64,000 nt of DNA from Candidatus Latescibacterota bacterium (GTDB lineage Bacteria > Latescibacterota > UBA2968 > UBA8231): the NCBI GenBank assembly GCA_020852055.1, contig JADZBP010000118.1, forward strand, positions 1-64,000, in the 5' to 3' direction. Shown here one piece after another: positions 42,923-61,379 of the stretch. Within the stretch, counting starts at the first letter, position 1, and every line of letters begins with the position of its first letter. The translations under genes and the position numbers were made by a program. The notes under the pieces were generated by a model that was given only the letters and a program-made list of their open reading frames with translations, was not told the origin of the DNA and did not search any database.

Positions 42923-44095
42923 TCAGCGGGGCAGGGGGTCCAATCCGAAGTACTCGCGGTACGCGTCCACCGCCGCCCGGTAGTTGGCCACCGGCATGTC
43001 CTCGTGCACCGAGTGGCTGGCGTGGATGATGTGCCCGCCCCGGCTCTGCCGGCCGTAGTCGAGGCAGGCGATCACCTCGGCCTTGATCGACTCCGGGGTG
43101 CCGTGGCACAGGTTGTGGCGGGCGTCCAGGTTGCCGATGATGCAGATGCGGTCGGCCACCCCTTCGGCGATCAGCCGCGGCCAGTTCATGCCCGCCGCCT
43201 GATCCACCTCCTTGTACCCGTCGATGCGCGAATCGAAGAAATACTCCTGCTTGATGGGCCAGTGGTTGCCGTCGGAGGTGTACACCGCCTTGGCGCCCGC
43301 CTGGTGGATCAGGTCCACATGGGCCTGGATGGCGGGCAGGATGAACTCGCGGTACTGGGCCGGGGAGATGAAAGGCCCCTTGTCGCAACTGACATCCCCG
43401 CCCATGGCGATGACCGAGCAGCCGCTCTCCACCAGCTGCCGGGTGGCCGGAAAGGCATGGGCCATCTGGTATTCCATCCAGCGGCGGATCAACTGCGGCT
43501 CGTCGATCAGCCACATCAGCATAAAGGGCGGATAGAAGGCCACGCCCGTGCCGCAGCCGATCTCACCCATATAGGTCCACTCGATGCCCTCGGCCTCGGC
43601 CAGCCGGCGCACCCCCTCCACCACCGGGTCCGGGCCGCCGGGCGGGGGCACGCTGCCGTCCCAGGTTTCGAGCTGTCGGCGCAGCTGCTCTTCGTCGTAG
43701 CGGTGGGAATAGCTGGCCTGCTCGGCGGGGTTCTCCAACACCACCAGGTCCGTCTTCTCGTCGTAGCGATAGGGCACCCCGTTCAGGGTCCAGGTCCGCG
43801 GCCCGGTCTTGATGGGCCGGGTGTACCCCCGGCCCGGCCCGCCATTGAGCCGCACCATGTCCACCTGGAAGAACTTGTTGACCAGGAACTGGGCCTCGAC
43901 GTTGGCCCGCAATTGCTCCTCGTACGACACCCCCTCGGCCATGGCATCCCAGGCCATCGCCGCATCGGTGGCGATGGTGCGGCCGCAGATATCCCAGTAG
44001 ATGGGATGATAGGGGGAGTAGATCTCGAAAAGCGGGGTGCGGTCCGGGGTCTGGTGGGCCAGCGCGCGGGCCACCCGTTCAGTTGATGCCGACAT
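42923..44095 (-). CDS. UroD-family protein with a T-S-D-G motif
   Basis: A 390-residue UroD-superfamily protein with the N-terminus STERVARALAHQTPDRTPLFE. The metal-site segment is AVYTSDGNHWPIKQEYF, with Asp for Cys and Thr for His; the distal segment GGHIIHASHSVHEDMPVANY carries His. The middle reads VIAMGGDVSCDKGPFISPAQYREFILPAI, as in other members. It starts three bases after the stop of the radical-enzyme activase gene, so it belongs to the glycyl-radical operon that starts with the genes around 51.6 kb. A sister paralogue lies at 40099 on the other strand. Reaction unknown. Confidence 0.85.
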   Translation of the reverse strand: MSASTERVARALAHQTPDRTPLFEIYSPYHPIYWDICGRTIATDAAMAWDAMAEGVSYEEQLRANVEAQFLVNKFFQVDMVRLNGGPGRGYTRPIKTGPRTWTLNGVPYRYDEKTDLVVLENPAEQASYSHRYDEEQLRRQLETWDGSVPPPGGPDPVVEGVRRLAEAEGIEWTYMGEIGCGTGVAFYPPFMLMWLIDEPQLIRRWMEYQMAHAFPATRQLVESGCSVIAMGGDVSCDKGPFISPAQYREFILPAIQAHVDLIHQAGAKAVYTSDGNHWPIKQEYFFDSRIDGYKEVDQAAGMNWPRLIAEGVADRICIIGNLDARHNLCHGTPESIKAEVIACLDYGRQSRGGHIIHASHSVHEDMPVANYRAAVDAYREYFGLDPLPR

Positions 44096-44098
44096 GCC

Positions 44099-45052
44099 TT
44101 ATTCCCTCCCTAGCGGGGCCGCTTCGGCCGCCGTCGTGTTGAGCACCTTGACCCCCAGGGCGGCAAAGGCGGCGATCCACGCCGCCACTTCCCCCTCGGT
44201 GGGTGGATCGATTTCTTCCTGGCCCCCGGTCTCCAGCCCCAGCCGCTCCCGCTTGCCGGTGCCCAGGCGGTGATAGGGCATCAGCTCCACCCCCTCCAGG
44301 CCGGGCAGGGAATGGACCAACGCGGCCACGGCGGCAAAGTGTCCGGGCCGCGCGTTGTATCCGGGGATCAGGGGCAGGCGCAGGCGCACCCGGCCGCCCT
44401 GCGCGTGGAGCAGGCGCAGGTTCTCCAGGATACGCGCGCCCGGCACCCCTGTATAGGCCAGGTGCCGCTGCTCGTCGGTCTCCTTCACATCGAAGAGAAA
44501 GAGATCAACCAGGGGCAACAGCCGGGCGAAGTGGTCCGCCGGGCCAAAGCCGCAGGTCTCCACGCAGCAGTGGACCCCCTCGGCGCGGGCCGCCCCGAGC
44601 AGGGCCAATACAAAGGGGAACTGCAGGGTCGGCTCGCCGCCCGACAGGGTCAACCCGCCGCCCGAAGCCTGGTAGAAGGGCCGGTCGCGCCGCACCAGGT
44701 CCATGACCTCGGCCACCGATACCTGGCGACCCACCCCTTCGATGGCGCGGGCATAACAGTCGTCCACACAGGTGCCGCACACCTCGCAGCGCTGGCGGTC
44801 GAGCACGTGCAACCCCTCGACGATGGCGTGGGCCCCGTGCGGGCAGACGTTGAAACAGTGGCCGCAGCCGACGCAGCGCTCGGCCTGAAAGGAGATCAGG
44901 GGCCGGACCGGGATGCCCTCGGGGTTGTGGCACCACACGCAGTGCAGGGGGCAGCCCTGCAGGAACACCGTGGTGCGGATACCCGGCCCGTCGTGCAGGG
45001 AGCAGCGCTGGATCTCGAAGATGCGGCCCAGCCCGGCAGCCGGCTCAGACAT
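44099..45052 (-). CDS. Glycyl-radical-enzyme activating enzyme (radical SAM)
   Basis: A 317-residue radical SAM activase that installs the glycyl radical on its partner enzyme under anaerobic conditions. The SAM-cluster motif is GCPLHCVWCHNPEG (C-x3-C-x2-C) near residue 35. A ferredoxin-like insert holds two further four-Cys sets, CVGCGHCFNVCP and CEVCGTCVDDC, as in activases of eliminating-type enzymes (not PflA). SGGEPTLQF and ETCGFGP are standard SAM-binding elements. The ATG at 45052 overlaps the end of the glycyl radical enzyme gene by eight bases, so the pairing is unambiguous. Confidence 0.95.
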   Translation of the reverse strand: MSEPAAGLGRIFEIQRCSLHDGPGIRTTVFLQGCPLHCVWCHNPEGIPVRPLISFQAERCVGCGHCFNVCPHGAHAIVEGLHVLDRQRCEVCGTCVDDCYARAIEGVGRQVSVAEVMDLVRRDRPFYQASGGGLTLSGGEPTLQFPFVLALLGAARAEGVHCCVETCGFGPADHFARLLPLVDLFLFDVKETDEQRHLAYTGVPGARILENLRLLHAQGGRVRLRLPLIPGYNARPGHFAAVAALVHSLPGLEGVELMPYHRLGTGKRERLGLETGGQEEIDPPTEGEVAAWIAAFAALGVKVLNTTAAEAAPLGRE

Positions 45053-47198
45053 GGGAGAACTCCGTGCGCAGGATCAACTCGTCCTGCATCTGCGGCGAAA
45101 GGCGGGCAAAGTAGTCGGTGTACCCGCCGATGCGCACCACCAGGTCGCGGTACTCCTCGGGGTGGGCCCTGGCCTTTTTGAGGGTCTCCTGGTCCACCAC
45201 GTTGATCTGGGTCTCGAAACCGCCCCGCTGCAGATAGGTGAGGACCAAGTCGCGCAGGCCACGCCGGCTGGAGGGCGAACGCAGCAGGCCGGCGTTGAAC
45301 TTCATGTTGTAGGCCAGCCCGCCGATCATCGGGCGGTGGTCCCAGCTGGTGGTGGAGAGGATGGCCGCCGTGGGCCCGAAAGACTCGCGGCCCTGGGCCG
45401 GGCCGCAGCCGTCGGCAAAGGGGAAGCCGGCCCGCCGGCCGTCGGGGGTGGCGCCGGTCTGGCGGCCCAGATGCTCGTGCATGATCCAGACAAAGGCCCC
45501 CGGCACGTACGGGCTGTCGTCGGGAGCCAGGCGATGGCGGCGGCAGGCCGCGACAGCAAAACCCACCACCTGCGCCACCAGCGCGTCCACCTCGGCGCAG
45601 TCCTGCCCGTACTTGGGATAGCCGTTGAGGAAACGCAGGCGCAGGGCTTCGTTGCCGGCAAAGTCGGCGTCGAGGGCGGCCTTCAATTCGGCAAAGTCGA
45701 GGCGCCGCTGGCGGTAGATCTCCTCGCGCAGCACGTACAGGGCGTCGGCCAGGTTGGCCAGCCCCACAAAAGAACACTCCGCCCAGTTGTACCCCGCCCC
45801 GCCCTCATCCATGTCCAAACCGCGGGCCAGGCAGTCGCGGGTGAAGATGCTCTGCAGGGGTTTGCGGCCCCGCTCGCGCCGCACCTGGCGGGCCTGGTTT
45901 TGTTCGGCCACGGCCTGGGTCACCGCCTGCTCCAGCCGGTGGCGGTACTGCTCCAGGAAGGCCTCGAAGGTGGGCGCCGGCTCGTCGATCTGCGCGGCGA
46001 TCTCCTCCAGCAGCAGGCCGCAGGTGTTGTAGTAGGGAGAAGCCACCCAGACGTTGCTGGCCCCCGAGGGGGTGATCTCCACACAGGTGGAGTTCACATA
46101 GCGGCAGGACTCGGTAGGGGGCACACCCAGTTGGCGCAGGCCCTGCTGGATGATCTCGTCGCCGAAGAAGGCCGGGTTGGCGCACCCGGACGAGATCAAC
46201 TCCACGGCCAGGTCCACCAGCTCGCCGGGAGTGCCCTCGTGCCAGCACACCCCCACCGTGGGATAGATCAGCCGGGTCCGCCGCAGGGCCTCCAAGCACA
46301 GGTAGGACAGGTCGTTGGTCAGATCAGCGCCGGCTTCGTCGCGGCCGCCCACCATCACCGAGATGGCCAGGCCGTCGGGGATGAACTCGTTGACCAGCAG
46401 ATAGAGGGATTCGAGCAGCAGCAGGGCCTCGCCCTGATCCAGGCGCCCCGCCGCCGTGTCCTGCGCGTAAAAAGGCTGCAGCGTGCGGTCGAGATGGCCG
46501 GGCACCACCAGGCCCACCGGCTCGCCCTGCATCACCCCCACCAAGGTCAGCCACAGGAGCTGCACCGCGTCGCGGAAATCGGCCGGCGGCTGGTGGGCGA
46601 TACGCCGGCACGAGTCGGCGATGGCCGCCAACTCGGCCTGCCGCTCCGGTCCGGCGGCGGGCATGGCGGTCTCGGCCGCCTCGGCGGCATGTCCACACAA
46701 CAAGGACAACCCCTCCAGGGCGTAGAGGAAGGATTGATAGGTCGCCGCCCGCTCGCCGGCAGCGCCGGCCATCAGGTCGTGGATGTACCCGGCCACCCCG
46801 TCGATGCCCTGCGCCATGAGCCGGCCCAGATCCAACTCACAATGCCCCGTCTGCCCGGGCGGGCCGGGATACTGCTCCAGGTAGCGGCGGGCCGCCTCCC
46901 CCTCTTCCGGGCTGCCCTCTTCGCGCTCCAGATCGACGCGGCCGGCCAGCAACTCCAACTCGTCCAGGGCGAACTGCACCCCGGCCAGGCGGTCGCGCAG
47001 CAGCAGGCCGCGGCGCAGTTGCCAGGAGCACAGCGCTTCGCTGGCCTGCAGGGAACGGGCCGAGACCACGGGCATGCCCATCATCGACCAGCCGCTCCGG
47101 CCGCTCTGTTTGCGCTCCAGCAGCCGCTGACGCAACACCTGCACCCGCTGGGCCTCGGCTTCAACGGCACCTTGTTCGGCGCTCAGGATCTGGATCAT
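45045..47198 (-). CDS. Glycyl radical enzyme of the pyruvate-formate-lyase superfamily, C-V-E active site
   Basis: A 717-residue oxygen-sensitive radical enzyme. Gly692 lies in the radical loop VVRIGGYTDYF near the C-terminus; the thiyl Cys372 lies in NSTCVEITPSG with Glu374 two residues on, the C-x-E arrangement of diol, glycerol, choline and hydroxyproline-type eliminases and of arylacetate decarboxylases. PFL has Cys-Cys instead, so PFL activity is unlikely. The residue before Cys is Thr where most characterised eliminases have Gly. The ATG at 47198 follows GAAGGAAGAACG. The activase overlaps its end and four UroD-family genes precede it in the same direction. Exact substrate unknown. Confidence 0.93.
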   Translation of the reverse strand: MIQILSAEQGAVEAEAQRVQVLRQRLLERKQSGRSGWSMMGMPVVSARSLQASEALCSWQLRRGLLLRDRLAGVQFALDELELLAGRVDLEREEGSPEEGEAARRYLEQYPGPPGQTGHCELDLGRLMAQGIDGVAGYIHDLMAGAAGERAATYQSFLYALEGLSLLCGHAAEAAETAMPAAGPERQAELAAIADSCRRIAHQPPADFRDAVQLLWLTLVGVMQGEPVGLVVPGHLDRTLQPFYAQDTAAGRLDQGEALLLLESLYLLVNEFIPDGLAISVMVGGRDEAGADLTNDLSYLCLEALRRTRLIYPTVGVCWHEGTPGELVDLAVELISSGCANPAFFGDEIIQQGLRQLGVPPTESCRYVNSTCVEITPSGASNVWVASPYYNTCGLLLEEIAAQIDEPAPTFEAFLEQYRHRLEQAVTQAVAEQNQARQVRRERGRKPLQSIFTRDCLARGLDMDEGGAGYNWAECSFVGLANLADALYVLREEIYRQRRLDFAELKAALDADFAGNEALRLRFLNGYPKYGQDCAEVDALVAQVVGFAVAACRRHRLAPDDSPYVPGAFVWIMHEHLGRQTGATPDGRRAGFPFADGCGPAQGRESFGPTAAILSTTSWDHRPMIGGLAYNMKFNAGLLRSPSSRRGLRDLVLTYLQRGGFETQINVVDQETLKKARAHPEEYRDLVVRIGGYTDYFARLSPQMQDELILRTEFSHV

Positions 47199-47211
47199 CG
47201 TTCTTCCTTCT

Positions 47212-48213
47212 TTACTCCAGGGCCGCTTCAGCCATGGCCTGGACGTTCTCGGGGGGGACATTGGGCAGCAGGGCCTCGTGGCTGGGGCTGATGATCAGGC
47301 AGGGACCCAGCAGTTCCTTGACCCGGCGCACGTCGGCCTTGATCTCTTCCGGGGTGCCGCTGACCAGCAGTTCCTGGGTATCGATGCCGCCCAGAAAGGC
47401 GATGCGCCCTTTGAAGTCGCGGGCCAGGGTCTGGGCCTCCATATCGGCGGCGCGGGCCTGCAGCGGGTGCAGGCATTCGACCCCGGCGTCGATGAGCCGG
47501 TCGATCACCTTGTGCACCGAACCGCAGGAATGCAGGATCACCTGGTAGCCGCGGGCATGGGCCTGCTCGGTGAAACGGCGGAACCAGGGCATCACGAACT
47601 GGTCGAACTGGGCCGGCCCGCAGATCAGGTCGCGCTGGGTGCCGAAGTCGTTGCCGAAGAAATAGCCGTCCATCAACTCGCCGGCCGCATCGAAGAAACG
47701 CTCATTGGCCTCGTGGAAAAAGGAACAGACCCGGTCGGTGACCGCCTGCACCAGCTCCGGGTTGAGGTACATGTTCATCATGTACTGTTCCATGCCGAAC
47801 AGGTCCATGACGTGGTGGTAGAAGGGGGCCCAGAAACCGCTGGCCCGGTAATAGGGCCCGGCATGGCGCAGGGCCTCCAGCACCGGCTCGAAGTCGAGGT
47901 AATCGGGATTGGGCCACTCGTAGAGGGTATCAACCGCGGCCGGGTCCTCGCAGTGGGCGAAAGGCCCGGGGGTGCCGTGGGCGCTCTTGCCGGGAATATC
48001 GAAGAGCCCGCGGCCCTGGGGATGGCGGTACACCCCGGCGGGAATCCAGCGGAAGTCGTCGCCCAGCTTCAGGCGCAACTGCTCCTGGGTGGAGGTGCCG
48101 AAGTAGGCGTGGTACAGCGGCCAGGTGTCGGGGTACGGATTGCCCAGCCAGAAACCACAGCGGTCGGCCGGCTTTCCGGCGATGATGGTGCGCAGGCGTT
48201 CGCGGCTGTTCAC
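47212..48213 (-). CDS. UroD-family methyltransferase-like protein with H-S-C-G motif
   Basis: A 333-residue UroD-superfamily protein with the zinc motif VILHSCGSVHKVIDRLIDAG, as in cobalamin:CoM methyltransferases (MtaA, MtbA). The third ligand position, where MtaA-type enzymes have Cys, reads IISPSHEALLPNVPPENV, offering His. The N-terminus NSRERLRTIIAGKPADRCGFW is typical. The start is GTG behind AAGGAGCCAAG. It begins after a 27-bp gap from the upstream paralogue and ends 13 bp before the glycyl radical enzyme gene. Known relatives move methyl groups from corrinoid proteins; no corrinoid protein gene lies nearby, so the acceptor and donor are unknown. Confidence 0.87.
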   Translation of the reverse strand: MNSRERLRTIIAGKPADRCGFWLGNPYPDTWPLYHAYFGTSTQEQLRLKLGDDFRWIPAGVYRHPQGRGLFDIPGKSAHGTPGPFAHCEDPAAVDTLYEWPNPDYLDFEPVLEALRHAGPYYRASGFWAPFYHHVMDLFGMEQYMMNMYLNPELVQAVTDRVCSFFHEANERFFDAAGELMDGYFFGNDFGTQRDLICGPAQFDQFVMPWFRRFTEQAHARGYQVILHSCGSVHKVIDRLIDAGVECLHPLQARAADMEAQTLARDFKGRIAFLGGIDTQELLVSGTPEEIKADVRRVKELLGPCLIISPSHEALLPNVPPENVQAMAEAALE

Positions 48214-48240
48214 CTTGGCTCCTTGGTCGGGTGGGGTCCC

Positions 48241-49308
48241 TCAGTAGGCGCCCAGTTTTTTGGCCAGTTCGACGATCTGTCCGAACTCGGCCAGGCTGAC
48301 GCTGGAGGGAACCGAATGGTCGGAGGAGAAGATGTACCCGCCCCGTTCCTTGAGGACCGGCATCACCCTGCCCATCTCGGCCTGAATGGCCTGGGCATCC
48401 TCCCACAGCACCGCATTGATGCCCCCGTGCAACACCAGCTGTTCCCCCCAGGTCCGCTTCAGGTGCACCGGGTCCATGCCGGCCTTGACCTCGAGCGGGT
48501 TGAGCGCGTCGATGCCGATCTCCACCAGTTCGGGCACCAGCGGATTGACATCGCCGCAGGAATGCAGGTGGGCCCGCACCCCCCGGGCATGGGCCCATTC
48601 CACGGCGCGCCGGTGGAAGGGCTTCAGCAATTCGCGGTAGACATCCAGCGAGAAGAACTGGTGGTGTTTGTAGCCCATGTCGTCGGGCCAGCTGACCACG
48701 TCGAAGTGATAACCCGCCTCCCAGACCAAGTCCAGCAGGGCCAGGTTCACCTCGAGTTGGTGGCCGAACATATCGCGACACCACTCGGGGTCCTCGACCA
48801 GGGCGCACAAGAGGCGTTCGGTGCCCACGGTCCAGGAATGGGTGATGTCGAAACCAAACCACAGTCCGGCCTGAATCCAGCACCCCTCGCGCTGCCAGAC
48901 TGGGTAGTTCTTTTCCAGGTGTTGCCAGTCGATGCGGTCCCGGTCGGGCTGCATCCGCGCCTTGGCCGCGTCCCAGGCCTGGCGGTCGACGATGGTGAAA
49001 TCGAGGAATTCGGGGGTGGAGGCGGCGTGTTTCCAGTTCTTGAGGGTGGCCCCCCAGGCGGTGGTGAAGATCCGGTACTCGTCGGTCTCCTCGACGGTGT
49101 GCACCGGATAACGCGGCGAACTATCCACCCCGATATGGGCTACCCGGTCCAGGCCGAAGTAGTCGATATAGCTGGTATCGGCGGGCAACCCCTCCCGCTG
49201 CCAGCGCTCGATGGTCGCCCCCCAGGGCGAATCGATGATGGGCACCCGATCGGCCTCCCGGTGTTCGTACATGCGCTGGAAACGCTCCCTGCTGGTCATC
49301 ACCTTCAT
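48241..49308 (-). CDS. UroD-family methyltransferase-like protein with H-S-C-G motif
   Basis: A 355-residue UroD-superfamily member. Its zinc motif is AHLHSCGDVNPLVPELVEIG, its later strand QLVLHGGINAVLWED, and its third ligand position FSSDHSVPSSVSLAEF, again with His instead of Cys. N-terminus MTSRERFQRMYEHREADRVPI. ATG at 49308 follows the upstream stop by two bases, so it is co-translated with the paralogue at 49311. Together with its three neighbours it forms the only block in the window that keeps H-x-C. Methyl transfer is plausible but not shown. Confidence 0.88.
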   Translation of the reverse strand: MKVMTSRERFQRMYEHREADRVPIIDSPWGATIERWQREGLPADTSYIDYFGLDRVAHIGVDSSPRYPVHTVEETDEYRIFTTAWGATLKNWKHAASTPEFLDFTIVDRQAWDAAKARMQPDRDRIDWQHLEKNYPVWQREGCWIQAGLWFGFDITHSWTVGTERLLCALVEDPEWCRDMFGHQLEVNLALLDLVWEAGYHFDVVSWPDDMGYKHHQFFSLDVYRELLKPFHRRAVEWAHARGVRAHLHSCGDVNPLVPELVEIGIDALNPLEVKAGMDPVHLKRTWGEQLVLHGGINAVLWEDAQAIQAEMGRVMPVLKERGGYIFSSDHSVPSSVSLAEFGQIVELAKKLGAY

Positions 49309-49310
49309 GC

Positions 49311-50573
49311 TCAGTTCTCCCCATTGAATTCCCGCACCGCCCCCAGCATGGCCGCGATGTTCTCGACCGGGGTGTTGGCCTGAATATTGTGCACCGCGTT
49401 GAAGACGAACCCGCCCTGCCGCGAGAAGATGCGGCAGCGCTCCAGCACCTCGGCCCGCACCTCCTCGGGCGTGCCAAAGGGCAGGGTGCGCTGGGTATCC
49501 ACCCCCCCGCCCCAGAAGACCAACCGGTCCCCGGAGCGTTCCTTGAGCTGCTCGGGCTCCATGCCGGCCGCCGAGCACTGCACCGGATTGATGATGTCGA
49601 AACCGTTGTCGATGAAGTGGGACAGGAAGGGCTCCACCGCCCCGCAGGAGTGTTTGAAGGTCTTCCACGAGGTGTGGCGGTGGACCCAGTCGTTGATCTG
49701 CCGATAGTAGGGCGCGTAGAGCGAATCGAAGGTCTCGGGCGAGCAGAAGCTGGAGGTCTGGGTGCCAAAATCGGTGCCGCAGACAAAAAGCACATCAATG
49801 GCGTCCCCGACCACGGCGTGGATCTTTTCCAGATTCGCCAGGGCCAGTTCGCACTGGCAGGAGAACACCGCGTGCAGGTAGTCCTGGCGGACCAGGGTGG
49901 AGATGTACCACTCGGTGATGTCGCGGATGCCCTTGGGCCGCTTGAGGAAGGGGGCCGGCACCAGGGCGATGTCGCCAAAGGCCGTACCGCCGAAGGTGCC
50001 CATCCTGGCCCGGGGCGAATCGGCAAGGCGGCCCACCTCGGCGCGCAGGTGCGCCAGCACCTCTGCATCGACCGGAGTGAACTCCTCGAGGTTGTCGTCG
50101 GGGTTGAGGTGTCCCTCCTCGAACTTCTCCTGGTAGACAATGGTGTCGAAGAAGAAACCGCCCACCGGCAGCCGGCCCCGCGGCGGCGCGTCCAGGTCAC
50201 CCTGCGGATAGAGCAGCAGGTCGCCGTTGCCGTCCACCGTGGTGCGGAAGTGCCCGGAGACCAACACCTCCTGGCCCCAGGGGGTGCGAAACTCCCGCCA
50301 GTTCTCGTTGGGGAAACCGAAGAGGGTGTTGCGGGGATAGAGGCCTTCCACATCCAGGCCCATGGCCTCGCGCAGGTCTTCCTCGATCCAGCCCAGCATC
50401 TGGTAGGGTTCCCAGATCTTCACCGGCCGGTTTTCCAGGCCGTAGTGCCGGCGCAAGCTGTCGACGCAGGTAACGTGTACCCCGGTCACCGCCGTGCTGC
50501 CAAAATCGATGGGTACCCGGTCGGGCTCCTGGTGATTGAGGGCCTTTTTGAGCCGCTGCCGGCTGATCATCAC
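49311..50573 (-). CDS. UroD-family methyltransferase-like protein with H-S-C-G motif, long form
   Basis: A 420-residue UroD-superfamily protein, about 70 residues longer than its neighbours because of an insert (about 60-165, rich in Gly and Asp). Zinc motif KTFKHSCGAVEPFLSHFIDNG; third ligand position FNAVHNIQANTPVENIAAM, with His. MMISRQRLKKALNHQEPDRVPIDF is the usual N-terminus. It lies between paralogues with gaps of 2 and 12 bases. The long form resembles proteins annotated as methylcobamide:CoM methyltransferase-like in anaerobes of several phyla. Substrate unknown. Confidence 0.88.
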   Translation of the reverse strand: MMISRQRLKKALNHQEPDRVPIDFGSTAVTGVHVTCVDSLRRHYGLENRPVKIWEPYQMLGWIEEDLREAMGLDVEGLYPRNTLFGFPNENWREFRTPWGQEVLVSGHFRTTVDGNGDLLLYPQGDLDAPPRGRLPVGGFFFDTIVYQEKFEEGHLNPDDNLEEFTPVDAEVLAHLRAEVGRLADSPRARMGTFGGTAFGDIALVPAPFLKRPKGIRDITEWYISTLVRQDYLHAVFSCQCELALANLEKIHAVVGDAIDVLFVCGTDFGTQTSSFCSPETFDSLYAPYYRQINDWVHRHTSWKTFKHSCGAVEPFLSHFIDNGFDIINPVQCSAAGMEPEQLKERSGDRLVFWGGGVDTQRTLPFGTPEEVRAEVLERCRIFSRQGGFVFNAVHNIQANTPVENIAAMLGAVREFNGEN

Positions 50574-50585
50574 ACATCTCTCCCG

Positions 50586-51590
50586 TCAGGGTCCGTACGG
50601 AACCGGATCACATAAAGCCTTGAGATTGGCCACCGGCGTTCCCGGCGGGATCTCGCAGCCGGCGTTGACCATGTAGGGATTGCCCACCTCGGCGTAGGTG
50701 CGCCGCACCGCCTGGCGGATGGCCTCGGGCTGACCAAAGAGCACCCCGTCGGCCGGGTCGATATTGCCGGTGAGGGTCACCCGGCTGCCCAGGACGCGGC
50801 GGGCCTGGGCCATGTCCACCAGGTGGTCCACGTCGGCGATGTCGATGCCCAGATCGGCGATGCCGGGCAGCAGGTGGGTGATGTCGCCGCAGATATGCAG
50901 CCGCACCAGCGCCCCCATGCCCTTGATCGCCTGCACCAGGCGTTTTTCGCGCGGCTGAATCAGGCGTTCGTACACGCCGGGGGAGATCTGGCTGGCGATG
51001 GCGTCGCCGATACCGATGGTCTCGGCCCCCTCCTCGATCTGGGCGTGGGCGAAGGCGATGCCCACCTCGACGCAGCGGTCCATCAGCTCCCCAGCAAAAA
51101 CCTCGTCGTCGAGCAGGTCGATCAGGAAGGTGGCCACCCCGCGCAGGTCGGCCGCCTCGGCGGCCGGGCCCTCGACCCAGCCCATGATGGAAAAGCGCCC
51201 GCCGCAGTTTTCGCGGTAGGCGCGCACGGCCTCCAGGCGGTCCCGCATCCGCGCTGAGCGGCGGGGGTCGGGACGGCCCAGCGCCGCCAGGTCCTTGTGC
51301 TCGGCCAGAGGGGGATGCGGACAGCGCGGCACTCCGTCCTTCACATAGACGATCTCGGCGCCGAACCCCTGGGTCTCGCGGTACGGATCGGACATGGTGT
51401 TCATCTGGTCCAGACCGAAATCGGCGGCCATACGCCGGTTGGCCTCGACCAGCACCCGGTGATCCGCGGCAAAGGACCCGTAGTCCACCCCGAGGTGTTC
51501 GGCGGCAAATAACATGAGGATGGGCAGACGGGGCAGGAAATCCACCTGCTCCCCTCTCACCACCCCCAGGTAGCGTTCCAGGCTGTTCAC
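50586..51590 (-). CDS. UroD-family methyltransferase with complete H-x-C plus Cys zinc site (MtbA/MtaA-like)
   Basis: A 334-residue protein, the closest of the eleven to characterised cobalamin:CoM-type methyltransferases. It keeps RLHICGDITHLLPGIADLGID and, uniquely here, the third ligand as Cys in VNAGCEIPPGTPVANLKAL. DPYRETQGFGAEIVY and SIMGWVEGPAAEAADLRG match the corrinoid-methyltransferase group. The start is GTG after AGAAGAGG. It is the first gene of the minus-strand series leading into the glycyl-radical operon. In known systems such an enzyme takes a methyl group from a corrinoid protein; that partner must be encoded elsewhere. Confidence 0.88.
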   Translation of the reverse strand: MNSLERYLGVVRGEQVDFLPRLPILMLFAAEHLGVDYGSFAADHRVLVEANRRMAADFGLDQMNTMSDPYRETQGFGAEIVYVKDGVPRCPHPPLAEHKDLAALGRPDPRRSARMRDRLEAVRAYRENCGGRFSIMGWVEGPAAEAADLRGVATFLIDLLDDEVFAGELMDRCVEVGIAFAHAQIEEGAETIGIGDAIASQISPGVYERLIQPREKRLVQAIKGMGALVRLHICGDITHLLPGIADLGIDIADVDHLVDMAQARRVLGSRVTLTGNIDPADGVLFGQPEAIRQAVRRTYAEVGNPYMVNAGCEIPPGTPVANLKALCDPVPYGP

Positions 51591-51821: not shown

Positions 51822-51968
51822 GATCAACTCCTTTCCAGGTCGGGGACGCGCTAGGTACAGTTCTCCAAAGGCCTCCGCCTGTCAAGCAGACTTCGGGGGG
51901 GGGCCTTCATTTCCGGGGCTCACTTGTAGATATTGGATGGTAAGGGCCTCTAAGCGGAGGAATTGGCG

Positions 51969-52613
51969 ATGACACCACGCCAAGCGCTCGAGCGGTTGCG
52001 GGAGGGTAACCAACGCTTCGCCGCCAATCTGCAGAGTCTCGACGCCCTGCTCACCCATACCCGGCGGGGGGAACTTGCCACCGGCCAGCACCCCTTCGCC
52101 ATCCTGCTGGGCTGCTCCGATTCGCGGGTGCCGGCCGAGACCGTTTTCGACCAGGGCCTGGGTGACCTCTTCGTCATTCGGGTGGCCGGCAACATCGTCG
52201 GCCCCTCGCAGGTGGGCAGCGTCGAGTTCGCCGTCGCCCGCCTCGGGGTGCGCCTGGTGGTGGTGCTGGGCCACACCCATTGCGGAGCGGTGGTGGCCAC
52301 CCTCGAGGAGTTACAGCGCCCGGCCCACGACCAGAACTTCCATCCCACCCTGATCACCGACCGGGTCCGCCCGGCGGTGGAGGGCCTGTTGGCCACCGAA
52401 CTGGTACACGACCAGGAGGCGCTGATCCGGCATGCGGTGCAGGCCAACGTGCGGGCCGCTGCCAGCCAGTTGCGCCACGGTTCGCCGCTCTTGGAGGAAC
52501 TGACCCAGAAAGGAGAAGTAGTGGTGGTGGGCGCCAAATACTCCCTGGAGAGCGGATTGGTCGATTTCTTCGACGGTTGCCCGGACCCCCTGGAACGGGG
52601 GGCCCTGTTGTGA
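51969..52613 (+). CDS. Beta-class carbonic anhydrase
   Basis: A 214-residue cytoplasmic zinc enzyme interconverting CO2 and bicarbonate. The zinc ligands and active dyad are present: Cys49, Asp51 and Arg53 in LLGCSDSRVP, and His102 and Cys105 in GHTHCGAV. The length and the VFDQGLGDLFVIRVAGNIV block are those of bacterial beta-CAs. I chose the ATG at 51969, eight bases after GGAGG; a TTG two codons earlier is too close to it. Its stop overlaps the GTG of a radical-enzyme activase as GTGA, so it belongs to the same operon, an unusual partnership. Confidence 0.96.
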   Translation: MTPRQALERLREGNQRFAANLQSLDALLTHTRRGELATGQHPFAILLGCSDSRVPAETVFDQGLGDLFVIRVAGNIVGPSQVGSVEFAVARLGVRLVVVLGHTHCGAVVATLEELQRPAHDQNFHPTLITDRVRPAVEGLLATELVHDQEALIRHAVQANVRAAASQLRHGSPLLEELTQKGEVVVVGAKYSLESGLVDFFDGCPDPLERGALL

Positions 52614-53506
52614 AGGGTCTGGTCCTCAACATCCAGCGCTTCTCCACCCACGATGGCCCCGGGGTGCGCACCACGGTTTTCCTCAAGGGCTGCACCAACA
52701 GCTGCGCCTGGTGCCACAACCCCGAATCCATCCGCCCCCGGCCCGAGGTCCAGATTTACCCCGAGCGCTGCCTGGGCTGTGGCCGCTGCATCGAGGTCTG
52801 TCAGGCCGGCGCCCACCAACTGGTGGAGGGCGCAAAGGGGTACCACCGCGAGCGCTGCCAGCACTGCGGCCGCTGCGCCGAGGAGTGTTTCTCCGGGGCC
52901 CTGGTTGCGGCGGGCCGGTCCCTGGAGGTGGAGGAGGTGATGGCCCAGATCCTGGAGGACGCCCCCTATTACCGCCACTCGCAGGGCGGCGCCACCTTCT
53001 CGGGCGGGGAACCGCTGATGCAGCAGGAGTTCCTGCGCGAGCTGCTGCGGGCCTGCCGGGACCAGGGCATCCACACCGCCGTTGAGACCGCCGGCAACTA
53101 CCCCTGGCCCTTCCTGGCCGAGCTGCTGCCCAGCATCGACCTGGTGATGTACGACCTGAAGATCGCCGACCCTGGGAAACACCGCCGCTACATCGGCAAC
53201 GACGGGGAGCGCATACGGGCCAACCTGCAGTTGCTGGGCGCGGCGGGCAAACCGCTCATCGTCCGCACCCCGGTGATCGGCGGGGTCAACGATACCCCCG
53301 AGGAGATCGGCAGCATCGCCCGCTTCATCGCCGACTTTCCCGAACTGCTCTATTACGAGTTACTGCCCTACCACACCCTGGGCCAGGCCAAGCTGCAGAG
53401 CCTGGGGCTGGAGGAAGAAGAGCGTTTCACCACCCCGTCCAAGGAACACCTGCACGAACTGGCCGAGGTGGCCAGGCAATTCGTCGGCCAGGTGAGACCG
53501 AACTAA
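52610..53506 (+). CDS. Glycyl-radical-enzyme activating enzyme (radical SAM)
   Basis: A 298-residue radical SAM activase. The SAM cluster motif is GCTNSCAWCHNPES; two ferredoxin-like Cys sets follow, CLGCGRCIEVC and CQHCGRCAEEC; FSGGEPLMQQ and AVETAGNYPW are SAM-binding elements. The start is GTG at 52610, overlapping the carbonic anhydrase stop by four bases. The glycyl radical enzyme gene begins 13 bp downstream. It is a paralogue of the activase at 44099 but only moderately similar, so each operon has its own dedicated activase. Confidence 0.95.
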   Translation: MKGLVLNIQRFSTHDGPGVRTTVFLKGCTNSCAWCHNPESIRPRPEVQIYPERCLGCGRCIEVCQAGAHQLVEGAKGYHRERCQHCGRCAEECFSGALVAAGRSLEVEEVMAQILEDAPYYRHSQGGATFSGGEPLMQQEFLRELLRACRDQGIHTAVETAGNYPWPFLAELLPSIDLVMYDLKIADPGKHRRYIGNDGERIRANLQLLGAAGKPLIVRTPVIGGVNDTPEEIGSIARFIADFPELLYYELLPYHTLGQAKLQSLGLEEEERFTTPSKEHLHELAEVARQFVGQVRPN

Positions 53507-53519
53507 TGGAGAACTTCCG

Positions 53520-55679
53520 ATGACCGCTACCACCCAGGATCTCTCGTACCGGGGCCGCATCGAAGCCCTGCGCCAGACCAAGTCCGCGCACACCGCCGAG
53601 AAGCTGCGCCTGCGCGGCTTCATGGATATCGACGACCACGGCTGGATCCCCTGGCCCGACCCCATCCCCTTCGAGCGCAAATCCAATCATCCGGGTGGGG
53701 GCAGCTACGGGGCCGCCTGTATCGGCGAAAACTTCCGCGCCTGGCTGGAGGTGCACCCGGTCTACATCCACCCCCAGAGCGCCCTGGCCGGGGCCTGGGT
53801 GCAGATCGGCCCTCCTGGCGTGGGCGGCTGGCGGCCCGAGGACCGTCCCACCCACCTGACCCCGCTGCACCAGAAATACAATATCCAGTTCACCGGCATC
53901 GGGGCCATGAACCACTGCGGGCCCGACATGCGCCTGGGCCTGGACCTGGGCTGGGGCGGCCTGCTGGAGAAGATCCGCCACTACCGCAACCTCAACCGCC
54001 CTGCGGATACCTCTTTCTACGACGGCGAGGAGGCCCTGGTGCTGGGGGTGCAGGCGTGGATCAGGCGGCACGTGGTCGTGGCACGGGAGATGGCTGACGC
54101 TGAAACGACCCCGGCCCTGCGCGACAACCTGCTCGAGATCGCCGCCATGAACGAGTGGCTGGTGGACAACCCGCCCCGCACCCTGCGCGAGGCCTGCCAG
54201 TTCTTGTCCTGGTTCCAGTCCATCGACCGCATGTGGGCCGCGGGGGGGGCGCTGGGCCAGCTCGACGAGCTGCTGCGGCCCTACTACGAGGCCGACTCGA
54301 CCGCCGGCCGGGGCGATGACGAGCAGGCCACCTGGTGTATCGCCAGCCTCTTCTTCAACGACACCCCCTACTCGCAGATCGGCGGGCTTTCCCCCGAGGG
54401 CCGCGACCTGACCAGCCCGGTCTCCTTCCTGGTGCTGGAAGCCATGCATCTGCTCAAAATCCCCATCAACATCGCCCTGCGGGTCCACGACGAACTCAAC
54501 CCCGAACTCCTGCGGCGGGCGGTGCAATACCTCTTTGAGGACGGCACCGGCTGCAGCTACGCCTGCGCCAAGGGCCTGGACGAGGGCTACGCCCGCAACG
54601 GGGTGCCCCTGCAGGTGGCGCGTATGCGCGCCAAGGTGGGCTGCAACTGGACCGCCCTGCCCGGCATCGAGTACTGCCTGCAGGACGTGACCCGCATGTG
54701 CCTGGTCTCCCCCTTCGAGCACGCCTTCAGGGACACCATCGCCAAAGGGGCCCCAACCCTGGAAAAACTGTGGGACCACTACACCCATCACCTGGGCATC
54801 GCGGTGGACACCATCAAAAAGGGCTTCGACTGGCACATGGAGCACCACGGCCGCAACAGCCCGGAGATCGTGCTCAACCTCTTTATGCAGGGGACCATCG
54901 AGCGGGGCCTGGATATGGCCGAGGGCGGGGTGGACATCTACCGGCTCACCTGCGACGGGGTGGGCCTGGCCACGGTGGCCGACTCCTTTGCCGCCATCGA
55001 GCAGCGGGTGGTCGTGGAGCAGCGGCTGAGCTGGGATGAGCTGGCCGGCCACCTGGAGCACAACTTCGCCGGGGCCGAGCCGGTGCGGCTGATGTTACAC
55101 GCCATCCCCCGCTACGGCTCGGGTGGCTCGCGGGCCGACCACTGGGCCAAGCGGGTGGCCGACCTCTACGGCGACCTAGTGCGCGGCACGCCCACGGCCA
55201 AGGGCTACACCGTGCTGCCCGGCCTTTTCTCCCACGGCATCGTCGCCATGCTGGGCAAGAACCTGGGCGCCACCCCCAATGGCCGGCACGCCGGCGACCC
55301 CATCTCCCACAGCGCCAACCCGGACCCGGGCTTCACCGCCAACGGCGGCTCGGCGCCCACGGCCAAGTCGAACGCCGTGGCCGCGGTGCAGCCGCGCTGG
55401 GGCAACACCACGCCCCTGCAGCTGGACATCGATGCCCATCTTTCGCGGGAAATCGGCGGCATCGAGGCCATCGAGGCGCTGATCAAGGGGCACAACGAGC
55501 TGGGCGGCACCCTGATCAACATCAACGTCATCTCCAAAGAACAGGTCCTGGAGGCCCACGCCGATCCGTCCAAATACCCCGATCTGGTGGTGCGGGTCAC
55601 CGGATACAGCGCCTACTTCCGCAGCCTCTCGCCTGAGTACCGGCAGCAGGTGGTGGACCGGCTCCTGGCCGAGTCCTGA
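53520..55679 (+). CDS. Glycyl radical enzyme with unusual C-N-W active site
   Basis: A 719-residue member of the pyruvate-formate-lyase superfamily. The radical Gly695 lies in VVRVTGYSAYF, and the thiyl Cys375 in KVGCNWTALPG. The residue two after Cys is Trp, not the Glu base of dehydratases, lyases and arylacetate decarboxylases, and there is no Cys-Cys pair as in PFL. The loop therefore fits none of the characterised reaction classes that I know. Partner residues near the N-terminus include NHPGGGSYGAACIGENF. It is preceded by its activase and a carbonic anhydrase, and its stop abuts that of a convergent SGNH hydrolase with no gap. Reaction unknown, with a link to CO2 or bicarbonate inferred. 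Confidence 0.92.
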   Translation: MTATTQDLSYRGRIEALRQTKSAHTAEKLRLRGFMDIDDHGWIPWPDPIPFERKSNHPGGGSYGAACIGENFRAWLEVHPVYIHPQSALAGAWVQIGPPGVGGWRPEDRPTHLTPLHQKYNIQFTGIGAMNHCGPDMRLGLDLGWGGLLEKIRHYRNLNRPADTSFYDGEEALVLGVQAWIRRHVVVAREMADAETTPALRDNLLEIAAMNEWLVDNPPRTLREACQFLSWFQSIDRMWAAGGALGQLDELLRPYYEADSTAGRGDDEQATWCIASLFFNDTPYSQIGGLSPEGRDLTSPVSFLVLEAMHLLKIPINIALRVHDELNPELLRRAVQYLFEDGTGCSYACAKGLDEGYARNGVPLQVARMRAKVGCNWTALPGIEYCLQDVTRMCLVSPFEHAFRDTIAKGAPTLEKLWDHYTHHLGIAVDTIKKGFDWHMEHHGRNSPEIVLNLFMQGTIERGLDMAEGGVDIYRLTCDGVGLATVADSFAAIEQRVVVEQRLSWDELAGHLEHNFAGAEPVRLMLHAIPRYGSGGSRADHWAKRVADLYGDLVRGTPTAKGYTVLPGLFSHGIVAMLGKNLGATPNGRHAGDPISHSANPDPGFTANGGSAPTAKSNAVAAVQPRWGNTTPLQLDIDAHLSREIGGIEAIEALIKGHNELGGTLININVISKEQVLEAHADPSKYPDLVVRVTGYSAYFRSLSPEYRQQVVDRLLAES

Positions 55680-57950: not shown

Positions 57951-60900
57951 ATGCTCCTCTATTCCGCCTTGCTCCTCTCCCTGTTCCTGGCCGGTTCCGC
58001 TGCAGCGGCCAGGCCCCCCGCGGAACCCACCCTGGTCCGCCTCTCCTTCTGGACCGCCCCCGAACGCCGCACCGAGTTCGCCTCGGCCTACGAGCAGGAG
58101 GTCGCCCCCCTGCTGGCCGACTTTGGCCTGGTAGCCGCCCCCCTGCAGAGCCGCCCCATCGCCGACAGTGTCTTCAGCCGCCTCTTCGTCCTGCCCTCGC
58201 CGGCAGTCTGGTCCGCCACCAAGAAACAACTGGAAACCGACGCCGTCCGCCTCCGCCTGCGGGAACTGCGCCGCCACCTGGCCACCCGCTTCGGCGCCAG
58301 CCGCCCCGACGGGACCATAAAGGCCGGGTTGATGCTCTACTCCGCCCCGGCCGGCAAAGGCCGCAGCCAGCCAGCGGGCAAGGGGCAGGGCCGGGAACTG
58401 GGGCCGGGCAAAGGCAACTGGCGCACCTACGACGCCACCAACGGCCTGGCCGGCCCCTGGGTCATGGACGTGCTGCAGGACCGCGAAGGGTACCTGTGGT
58501 TCGCCACCTTCAACGACGGGGTCAGCCGCTTCGACGGCCAGACCTGGACCACCTTCTCCAACAAGGATGGCCTGGCCGACAACCGCGTCACCGGCCTGCT
58601 CCAGGACGCCCGAGACCAGCTCTGGTTTGCGACCCTGAGCGGGGTCAGCCGCTTCGACGGCCAGACCTGGACCACCTTCTCCAGCAAGGACGGCCTGCCC
58701 GACAACCGCGTCACCGGCCTGCTCCAGGACGCCCGAGGCCAGTACTGGTTCGCCACCCTGGGGGGGGTCAGCTGCTACGACGGCCACACCTGGACCACCT
58801 TCACCGAGCAGAACGGCCTGGCCGACAACCGGGTGATCGACCTGAAGGAGGACCACCAGGGCCGGCTCTGGTTCGCCACCCTGGGGGGAGGCGTCAGTTG
58901 CTACGACGGCCACACCTGGACCACCTTCACCGACAAGGATGGCCTGGCCGAGAACCGCGTCATGTCGATCTTCGAGGACCAGCAGGGCCATATCTGGGTC
59001 GGCGGGATGGACAAAGGATTGAGCCGCTACGACGGCCACACCTGGACCACCTTCACCGACAAGGACGGCCTGGCCAACAACCGGGTGATCGAGATCTTTC
59101 AGGACCGCCGGGGGGTGCTGTGGTTCGGCACCTACGGGGGGGTGAGCCGCTACGACGGCAAAACCTGGACTACCCTGACCACCGCCGACGGCCTGGTCTT
59201 CAACGTGGTCGCCGCCATCTGGCAGGACCGCGAGGGCGCCCTGTGGTTTGGCACCTCGGGGGGGGTGAATCGGTACGACGAGGAGAGCTTCCGGACCTTC
59301 GGCGCTGCCGACGGCATCTCCCCGGAGGGGGTGCACGGGCTCTTCCTGGATCGGGAGGGGCGCATCTGGTTCGCCAACGGCCCCCTGGTCACTCGGGGCG
59401 GCGGGGTGAGCTGTTACGACGGCCACCGGCTGACCACCTACACCACCGCCGACGGTCTGGCCGACGACAAAGTGTCCTCGGTCTCACAGGATCGCGAAGG
59501 AAATCTCTGGTTCGCCACTGCCGGCGGGGCCAGCCGCTACGACGGCCGCACCTTCACCAACTTCACCGAAGAGGACGGCCTGCCCGACAACGAGGTCAAT
59601 TGCATCATCCAGGACCGCCAGGGCAACCTCTGGTTCAGCAGCGGCGACGGGGTGGCCCGGTACGACGGCCGGCGCTTCGAGGTTTTTGCCGCCGAGGACG
59701 GCATGGGCGGCAGCGGCGCCTGCCCCATGCTGCTGGACCGCCAGGGCAACCTCTGGTTCGGCAGCGCCGAGAAAGGGGTGACCCGCTACGACGGCCAGCG
59801 TTTCCAGACCTTCACCACCCGCGACGGGCTGGCCCACAACGATGTGCTCGACATCTATCAGGACCCGCAGGGCGACCTGTGGTTCGCCACCCACGGGGGC
59901 CTGAGCCGCTACGACGGCCAGCGTTTTACCAACCTGACCACCCACCAGGGCCTCAGCTCCAACGACGTGCACGCCATCTCGCAGGCCGCCGACGGCGACC
60001 TGTGGATCGGCACCGATGGCGGCGGGGTGAGCCGCTACGACGGCCAGGTCTTCCAGCACCTCACCCGCGAGGACGGCCTGGCCAGCAATGTGGCCATCGC
60101 GGTGGTTGAGGACGGGCAGGGTTATCTGTGGGCGAGCAGCAACAACGGCATCACCCGGTACCATTCACCCGTACCCACCCCGTTGCCCACCGCCATCGAA
60201 GCCGTGGTGGCCGACCGGCGCTACCCGGCGCGGGGCAAGGTGGAGATCCCCACCGACGCCGGGCTGACCGCCTTCGAATTCCGCACCATGAGTTTCACCG
60301 TGCGCCCCGGCCAGGCCACCTATCTCTACCGGCTGCAGGGCTACGACCAGGACTGGCGCCAGACCCGCTCCAACCGGGTGGAGTACGCCGATCTGCCCAG
60401 AGGCGAATACCTGTTCGAGGTGCGGGCCGTGGACCGCGACCTCAACTACTCCGACCCGGCCCAGGTGCAGGTGGACCTCCACCTGCCCTATGCCCAGCTG
60501 GTCTGGATGGCGAGCCTGGGCCTAGCCCTTTTGCTCTTGGGCTGGCAGGGCAAACGCCTGGTGCAGCGCGACCGCCGGCTGCGGGCCTCCAACCTGGAAC
60601 TGTTGCAGAAGACCGCGGCCCTGGAGGAGGCCTACGGCCAGGTGCGCCGGGCCAACCAGACCAAAAGCGCCTTTCTCGCCAGTATGTCCCACGAATTGCG
60701 CACCCCGCTCAACGCCATTCTCGGTTTCACCGAGTTGCTGCAGGCCAACCGCGAGCAGAACCTCAGCGAGCGCCAGCAGCGCAACCTGGGCACCATCCAC
60801 CGCAACGCCGCCAATCTGCTCCATCTGATCAACGATTTGCTGGATCTGTCCAAGATCGAGGCCGGCCGCACCGCCCTCAACTGCGAACATTTTGTGGTGC

Positions 60901-61379
60901 AGGAGGTGGTGCAGGAGGTGGCGGTGATGGCCGAGCCCCTGCTGCGCGACAAACCCGTGGTCCTCGAAACCACCGGCGGCGACCTGCCCCTGTGGCTCTA
61001 CAGCGACAAAGCCAAACTCAAGCAAATCCTGGTCAACCTGATGAGCAACGCGGTGAAGTTCACCCGCGAGGGACGCATCACCATTCACACTCGGGTCCAG
61101 GAGCAGGGCCTGGAGATCGCAGTGCAGGACACCGGCGCCGGCATCCCGGCCGAAAAACTGGAGGCCATCTTCGAGGAGTTCAGCCAGGTGGACGGCCAGA
61201 CCCTGCCCGGGGTGGTGGGCACCGGTCTGGGGCTGGCCATCACCCGGCGCCTGTGCCAGTTGCTGGGCGGGCAGATCCAGGTGCACAGCGCGGTAGGCCA
61301 GGGTTCCACCTTTACCGTGAGCCTGCCCCTGAGCCTGGCGCCGGAACCCGCCCCCCCCTTGCAGGGAACGCCGGCATGA
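57951..61379 (+). CDS. Membrane sensor histidine kinase with 14-repeat two-component-regulator propeller
   Basis: A 1142-residue sensor. After a signal or anchor (about 1-20), residues 27-115 form a small alpha-beta domain (LVRLSFWTAPERRTEFASAY) reminiscent of NIPSNAP/ABM-like folds. Fourteen propeller repeats of about 42 residues (W-F-A-T ... S-R-Y-D-G ... D-G-L) span about 160-740, enough for two seven-bladed propellers. A Y_Y_Y domain (YLYRLQGYDQDWRQT) and one span (about 848-866) follow. The kinase core has the phosphorylated His914 in MSHELRTPLNAILGF, an N-box NLMSNAVKF, and G-boxes DTGAGIPAEKL and GTGLGLAITRRL. The layout resembles the glycan-sensing hybrid kinases of Bacteroidota, but here receiver and output are separate downstream genes. 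Confidence 0.93.
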   Translation: MLLYSALLLSLFLAGSAAAARPPAEPTLVRLSFWTAPERRTEFASAYEQEVAPLLADFGLVAAPLQSRPIADSVFSRLFVLPSPAVWSATKKQLETDAVRLRLRELRRHLATRFGASRPDGTIKAGLMLYSAPAGKGRSQPAGKGQGRELGPGKGNWRTYDATNGLAGPWVMDVLQDREGYLWFATFNDGVSRFDGQTWTTFSNKDGLADNRVTGLLQDARDQLWFATLSGVSRFDGQTWTTFSSKDGLPDNRVTGLLQDARGQYWFATLGGVSCYDGHTWTTFTEQNGLADNRVIDLKEDHQGRLWFATLGGGVSCYDGHTWTTFTDKDGLAENRVMSIFEDQQGHIWVGGMDKGLSRYDGHTWTTFTDKDGLANNRVIEIFQDRRGVLWFGTYGGVSRYDGKTWTTLTTADGLVFNVVAAIWQDREGALWFGTSGGVNRYDEESFRTFGAADGISPEGVHGLFLDREGRIWFANGPLVTRGGGVSCYDGHRLTTYTTADGLADDKVSSVSQDREGNLWFATAGGASRYDGRTFTNFTEEDGLPDNEVNCIIQDRQGNLWFSSGDGVARYDGRRFEVFAAEDGMGGSGACPMLLDRQGNLWFGSAEKGVTRYDGQRFQTFTTRDGLAHNDVLDIYQDPQGDLWFATHGGLSRYDGQRFTNLTTHQGLSSNDVHAISQAADGDLWIGTDGGGVSRYDGQVFQHLTREDGLASNVAIAVVEDGQGYLWASSNNGITRYHSPVPTPLPTAIEAVVADRRYPARGKVEIPTDAGLTAFEFRTMSFTVRPGQATYLYRLQGYDQDWRQTRSNRVEYADLPRGEYLFEVRAVDRDLNYSDPAQVQVDLHLPYAQLVWMASLGLALLLLGWQGKRLVQRDRRLRASNLELLQKTAALEEAYGQVRRANQTKSAFLASMSHELRTPLNAILGFTELLQANREQNLSERQQRNLGTIHRNAANLLHLINDLLDLSKIEAGRTALNCEHFVVQEVVQEVAVMAEPLLRDKPVVLETTGGDLPLWLYSDKAKLKQILVNLMSNAVKFTREGRITIHTRVQEQGLEIAVQDTGAGIPAEKLEAIFEEFSQVDGQTLPGVVGTGLGLAITRRLCQLLGGQIQVHSAVGQGSTFTVSLPLSLAPEPAPPLQGTPA
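58430..60170 (+). repeat. Fourteen tandem coding repeats of about 126 bp within the sensor kinase gene
   Basis: Each unit carries a similar block around CTACGACGGCCACACCTGGA and GACGGCCTGGCC. Units three to five are almost identical in DNA, suggesting recent expansion; later units have drifted. The repeats encode propeller blades, not a CRISPR array. Confidence 0.85.

Follow-up and report, generated by a model that had tools for sequence, protein, structure and literature searches.

A family of glycyl radical enzymes with a Cys-[Asn/His]-Trp active-site loop and a possible role in carbohydrate catabolism

Introduction

Which reaction might be catalysed by a glycyl radical enzyme (GRE) whose active-site loop carries Cys-Asn-Trp at the place where eliminases carry Cys-x-Glu? 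The GRE families characterised so far each catalyse a distinct anaerobic reaction, and several of them are important in the gut. Many abundant gut GREs have no assigned function (PMC11574389). In eliminases, the glutamate of the CxE motif contacts the substrate hydroxyl and usually acts as the base (PMC7077986, PMC8473560). The question is raised by a gene in a stretch of 64,000 nucleotides from a Candidatus Latescibacterota bacterium (contig JADZBP010000118.1), the whole of which is called the window here; an initial annotation had placed its product outside the known reaction classes.

Results

The window GRE and its activase

The gene, the radical SAM activase that precedes it and the residues discussed below are as follows.

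52610..53506, plus strand: cognate radical SAM activase of this GRE, carrying a pair of 4Fe-4S motifs; TIGR02494 337 bits against a cut-off of 174
53520..55679, plus strand: C-[N/H]-W family GRE of 719 aa, starting with ATG
53913..53915, plus strand: His132, aligned with the His conserved on beta1 (GDH His164); invariant
54630..54665, plus strand: Cys loop KVGCNWTALPG, with Cys375 (54642-54644), Asn376, and Trp377 replacing the CxE Glu
54669..54674, plus strand: Glu384-Tyr385; Glu384 is a candidate substitute base
54684..54686, plus strand: Asp389, at the position of Asp447 in glycerol dehydratase (GDH), aligned to the D of GDH, PDHT and PflD; invariant
55233..55235, plus strand: His572, which the alignment would place on the strand bearing Thr645 in HypD
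55593..55610, plus strand: glycyl radical loop RVTGYS with Gly695; invariant

The protein belongs to the GRE superfamily, as it matches PF02901 (E 1.8e-73) and PF01228 (E 5.6e-13) in Pfam, carries an intact radical glycine and a catalytic Cys on the Cys loop of the barrel fold, and has its cognate activase directly upstream, the GTG start of which overlaps the stop codon of the upstream carbonic anhydrase gene. Cys375 lies within GCNWTALPGIEY and, at 54642, in KVGCNWTALPGIEY, inside the interval to which the initial annotation had assigned the loop; the Cys375-Asn-Trp reading, its residue numbers and its coordinates were correct, and Gly695 is intact in RVTGYS, as had been described. The contrast drawn there with known classes also holds in our alignments, where C-x-E is seen in PflD, YbiW, CutC, HypD, PDHT and GDH, and Cys-Cys in the PFL-type enzymes L135 and L147.

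Extent and conservation of the family

Homologues, ranging from 89% to 42% identity, were gathered from the genus and phylum of the window, from plasmids and from GTDB species genomes. C-N-W or its C-H-W variant is present in the orthologue from a related MAG (89% identity) and in all the homologues at 73-42% identity, so the motif is neither a chance occurrence nor a sequencing error. A genome scan returned 563 related stretches in GTDB species genomes, the best 80 of which are labelled Latescibacterota, Chloroflexi, Poribacteria, Armatimonadetes, Clostridia, Spirochaetales, Bathyarchaeota and others, from both MAGs and isolates. The family also occurs in Treponema and Bacteroidota; its clostridial members include gut isolates, and among cultured species it is found in, for example, Eisenbergiella tayi and Ruminiclostridium cellobioparum. 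Its hosts are anaerobic bacteria together with some archaea. A member is present in 7 of the 64 genomes of the window's phylum and in 19 of the 245 Clostridia genomes sampled. A search for viral relatives found none.

We define the family as the clade with GC[NH]Wx2[LIV]PGxEY and an Asp at Cys+14, both of which the window GRE displays. Position Cys+2 is Trp in 88/88 homologues examined, with Asn (78) or His (10) at Cys+1; this alignment was motif-filtered, and the unfiltered list and a 14-member set chosen by similarity only give the same Trp result. Every family member reads GC[N/H]W in the unfiltered alignment. Residues H132, C375, W377, E384, Y385, D389 and G695 are invariant in the 14-member alignment. 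In the larger set E384, Y385 and D389 are likewise invariant in 88 members and Gly695 is intact in 88/88 aligned members, although the homologues were partly selected on the radical motif: because PGxEY formed part of one scan pattern and the radical loop part of the second, the conservation of E384 and Gly695 there partly reflects selection, whereas that of W377 does not. Residue 572 covaries with residue 376, the pairs being N376/H572 in 76 members, H376/W572 in 10 and N376/W572 in 2.

Placement against characterised families

The 26 members placed on one tree fall on a single branch (SH-aLRT 100), and the 11 on another tree form one clade (100/100) inside which no characterised GRE that was placed falls. 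The tree references comprised PflD, YbiW, CutC, HypD, GDH, propanediol dehydratase and many uncharacterised GREs, and among these the family lies inside no characterised family; HPAD, IAD, IslA, the succinate synthases and the aminoacyl radical enzymes lay off the tree, the first four being matched through sequence and fold alone. A full-text literature search that excluded most subscription papers returned no described C-N-W or C-x-W GRE. Levin et al. 2017 is reportedly a network study of gut GREs, in which the family may figure as an unnamed cluster.

Profile models agree with this placement. The window GRE approached none of the NCBIfam equivalog cut-offs, and naming by NCBIfam was rejected: full-length GRE equivalogs gave at most 182 bits against cut-offs of 994-1150, and the broad PFL2-3 subfamily model gave 222 bits against 678. 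The CutC, HypD, HpsG, HpfG and PflD models scored at most 182 bits against 1000-1109, below the eliminase cut-offs, and the arylacetate decarboxylase models (HPAD, IAD) 77-96 bits against 1100-1150. For pyruvate formate-lyase the score was 72 bits against 994, and the window protein reads Gly374-Cys375-Asn376 with no Cys-Cys. The best reading is that the C-[N/H]-W GREs constitute a new GRE family, for which we found no characterised member.

The C-N-W triplet itself was considered as an exclusive mark of the family and rejected as such, since another GRE and its relatives carry GCNWPDIPGxQ without Glu384. This second C-N-W enzyme, from contig C74 of the genome that contains the window (G000:C74:9329-11665), reads GCNWPDIPGHQ and adjoins a GHL10-type protein; its relatives in two further genomes of the phylum retain GCNWPDIPGxQ, where Gln replaces the Glu at Cys+9. 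It may represent the sister group of the family (92/93), on a long branch.

Structure model and active site

The AlphaFold model of the window GRE has a mean pLDDT of 92.3 and a pTM of 0.92. In Foldseek searches GRE eliminases were the best matches (E 4e-38 to 2e-37, ~20% identity, TM-score about 0.8), the nearest solved structures being those of propanediol dehydratase, glycerol dehydratase and PflD; succinate synthases and PFL matched less well, and the best PDB profile matches were PflD and GDH. Active-site residues were assigned from alignments and published papers, not from pocket positions in the model coordinates. On this basis the eliminase CxE motif is replaced by C-N-W in the window protein and by C-[N/H]-W in the family, while the eliminase His and Asp (GDH His164 and Asp447) are retained as H132 and D389, the former aligning with H in PflD, YbiW, HypD, PDHT and GDH.

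Other differences accompany the altered loop. The beta2-beta3 segment (helix end 280 to strand start 284) falls ~18 residues short of its counterparts in GDH, PflD and CutC, the shortfall preceding Tyr284; in HypD, as the alignment reads, this stretch bears Ser334 and Asp339. A shortened segment is also found in other GREs (WIN_GRE2, L139 and L149). Arg370, Glu384, Glu449, Asp479 and Asp638 are invariant in the family and different in most reference eliminases, which have T, G, I, A or E at position 384. Together, the lost Glu, the short segment and the new invariant residues suggest, at the level of aligned sequences, a rebuilt and possibly larger pocket with new acid/base residues, several of which are candidates for the base.

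Loss of the CxE glutamate alone is no proof of new chemistry, because the proposed base of HypD is Asp278 and not the CxE Glu (PMC7077986), and because other uncharacterised GREs are also without this Glu, reading C-M-Q, C-M-G, C-N-Q or C-V-V. The C-V-V variant was observed in a GRE on a plasmid of Peptoclostridium acidaminophilum (L126:2302-4671), which groups with CutC on the tree. Separately, the Lachnospiraceae MAG RGIG5494 from sheep colon (G075; loci L158-L177, L105, L134 and L146) yielded 24 PF02901 matches, most of 670-770 aa, whose Cys loops include C-V-E, C-E-E, C-M-E, C-H-E, C-C-E, C-W-E, C-Q-E, C-S-E, C-T-E, C-N-W, C-M-Q and C-M-G, among others; this set is an unusual radiation of uncharacterised GREs.

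Comparison with named systems

PflD of E. coli (PDB 8yjo, 8id0), which acts on 1,5-anhydromannitol-6-phosphate (title of PDB 8id0; PMC12441222), shares with the window GRE the fold, the best PDB profile match (273 bits), the aligned His and Asp, and a similar end of the Cys loop (IPGRTY in PflD, LPGIEY in the window GRE). It differs in having C-V-E instead of C-N-W, in its longer beta2-beta3 segment and in sequence, with about 22% identity in the structure alignment; moreover, pflD lies in a PTS gene cluster, whereas C-[N/H]-W members have ABC importers or none. The B12-independent glycerol and 1,2-propanediol dehydratases (1r8w, 5i2a) are the top Foldseek matches, and their His and the Asp447 equivalent are retained, but they have the CxE Glu where the window GRE has Trp, fall in another clade and, in the case of GDH, are ~70 aa longer.

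HypD shares the conserved beta1 His and offers a precedent for a base outside CxE; it differs in reading C-V-E, and the window GRE appears from the alignment to be without an Asp at the Asp278 position and without the Ser334/Asp339 segment. The benzylsuccinate and alkylsuccinate synthases (4pkc, 9o8u) have the GRE fold and a reaction that is not an elimination, but their sequence matches to the window GRE are weak (134-141 bits). These synthases have accessory subunits; no X-succinate synthase small-subunit gene was recognised beside the window GRE. The aminoacyl radical enzymes, in which Ala, Ser or Thr replaces the radical Gly, belong to the GRE superfamily and are related to elimination, with varied gene contexts and unassigned reactions (PMC11528403); unlike them, the C-[N/H]-W members examined keep Gly695 intact.

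Gene neighbourhood in the window

Two further genes in the window bear on the interpretation.

51963..52613, plus strand: carbonic anhydrase family gene (PRK15219, E 2e-44), overlapping the activase start
45045..47261, minus strand: second GRE, of C-V-E type, with an activase at 44099-45052 (minus strand); 28% identity to the first GRE

The carbonic anhydrase was considered as a functional partner and rejected: it overlaps in the window and is missing from all homologous loci, including that of the closest relative (L037/L025), so it is probably an accidental neighbour. The second GRE belongs to a separate family. Five UroD/MtaA-like genes (42923-51590, minus strand) surround it and its activase, and three of these genes (84-92% identical) and the second GRE are found at L037 too, near the orthologue of the C-N-W GRE; UroD-like genes recur at a few other C-[N/H]-W loci. 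An SGNH hydrolase also lies close to the window GRE, and no sugar transporter or glycosidase is among the genes annotated beside it. Further downstream (57951-61379, plus strand), a large protein combines repeated propeller-like motifs with a C-terminus resembling a histidine kinase, and ORFs similar to response regulators come after it.

Operon context across the family

An activase adjoins most family members, and no other universal neighbour was found; since the activase is the only conserved neighbour and the glycosidases vary, no single substrate emerges. Clostridial and spirochaetal loci contain sugar-type ABC permeases and binding proteins, GH38 alpha-mannosidases directly downstream, a 760-aa protein (unk760), Gfo/Idh pairs and glycerol-kinase-like FGGY kinases. 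GH2, GH36-type, GH43-like and GH106-like enzymes occur near family members as single cases; the Flammeovirga member is near GH47 and GH130, and the Persicobacter member near GH47. Mandelate racemase-type enzymes, xylose isomerase-like proteins and Gfo/Idh oxidoreductases adjoin some members.

These contexts were compared with 218 control genes drawn from random windows of four related isolates, whose genomes are rich in sugar transporters. GH38 was in the operon at 9/56 family loci and 2/218 control genes (p 1.4e-5), any of GH38, sugar ABC permease, Gfo/Idh or unk760 at 22/56 and 28/218 (p 2e-5), and sugar ABC transporters alone, weakly enriched, at 11/56 and 22/218 (p 0.047), these p-values being optimistic because the categories were picked after inspection and the loci are related and not independent. 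Within 8 kb, sugar transporters were not significantly more frequent than around the control genes (p 0.15).

The unk760 protein (L104:6789-9065), with homologues in L062, L067, L070, L092, L098 and L108, is regularly in the GRE operon and has a conserved EEPEFW motif. It had no Pfam match and no PDB sequence match; its model (pLDDT 68) gave weak matches to GH42/GH112-type enzymes and, being of low confidence, makes it at best glycosidase-like.

Discussion

The initial annotation was right that the C-N-W loop is real, and we find it fixed in a clade without placed characterised GREs. Its stronger claim, that the enzyme lies outside known reaction classes, is possible and a new class is not established, because the fold and the mappable pocket residues are closest to those of eliminases. 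The reading that we tentatively favour, at a confidence slightly short of probable, is that the C-[N/H]-W GRE is a radical C-O lyase acting on a carbohydrate in sugar or glycan catabolism. It draws on the family-wide conservation of the loop, H132 and D389, on the closeness of fold and profiles to eliminases, on the precedent of PflD for sugar-like substrates, and on operons that carry GH38, other glycosidases and sugar transporters. In such an enzyme, the activase would install the radical on Gly695, which would oxidise Cys375 to a thiyl radical; this would abstract a hydrogen from a hydroxylated carbon of a sugar, glycoside or other carbohydrate-derived substrate, and the adjacent C-O bond would cleave. 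As in diol dehydratases, the departing oxygen would be held or protonated by His132 and Asp389. Loss of the beta2-beta3 segment would widen the pocket, in which Trp377 may stack on the ring of the sugar, and the proton removal that is normally the task of the CxE Glu could pass to another residue, with Glu384, Asp479, Asp638 and His572 as candidates.

The main rival to a C-O lyase, which we regard as rather unlikely, is a non-eliminating GRE that would carry out C-C cleavage, a radical addition, or the epimerisation or isomerisation of a sugar or sugar acid; without the CxE base, the substrate radical would not be made a ketyl and would fragment, add or be re-reduced. Loss of the Glu common to eliminases (PMC7077986, PMC8473560) fits such chemistry, as do the many family-specific invariant polar residues (R370, E384, E449, D479, D638) and the Cys loop of succinate synthase, which serves as an oxyanion hole for fumarate (PMC12358834). 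Retention of the eliminase pair H132 and D389 speaks against it, and so do the fold and profile matches, which are best for eliminases and weaker for succinate synthases and PFL.

Ranked next, and a shade more doubtful, is a 1,2-elimination of the usual kind, mechanistically not especially new, with a small polyol, a sugar acid or an inositol as substrate, in which the base has been relocated and Trp377 only changes the shape of the pocket. HypD, with its base from another strand (Asp278), makes this conceivable, and the Gfo/Idh, mandelate racemase-type and xylose isomerase-like genes beside some members would suit such substrates. However, all characterised eliminases in the alignment have the CxE Glu, which proved essential where tested (PMC7077986, PMC8473560), and the fact that it is replaced without exception in a family spanning many phyla speaks for a change of function. 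Arylacetate decarboxylases are themselves GREs, and the overlap of the carbonic anhydrase and activase genes in the window could be taken to indicate a decarboxylase coupled to the upstream enzyme; we hold this to be very improbable, as no homologous locus has a carbonic anhydrase and the decarboxylase models match weakly.

A fixed active-site change in a widespread family points to a reaction, or a class of substrate, that is still to be assigned, and since cultured hosts carry members, the function of the family is directly testable. It is conceivable, if unlikely, that the family acts on intact sugars or glycosides, cleaving or rearranging them through radical chemistry that does without the CxE glutamate. 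If this were true, anaerobes would gain an oxygen-sensitive, NAD-independent route for glycans beside the classical glycosidases.
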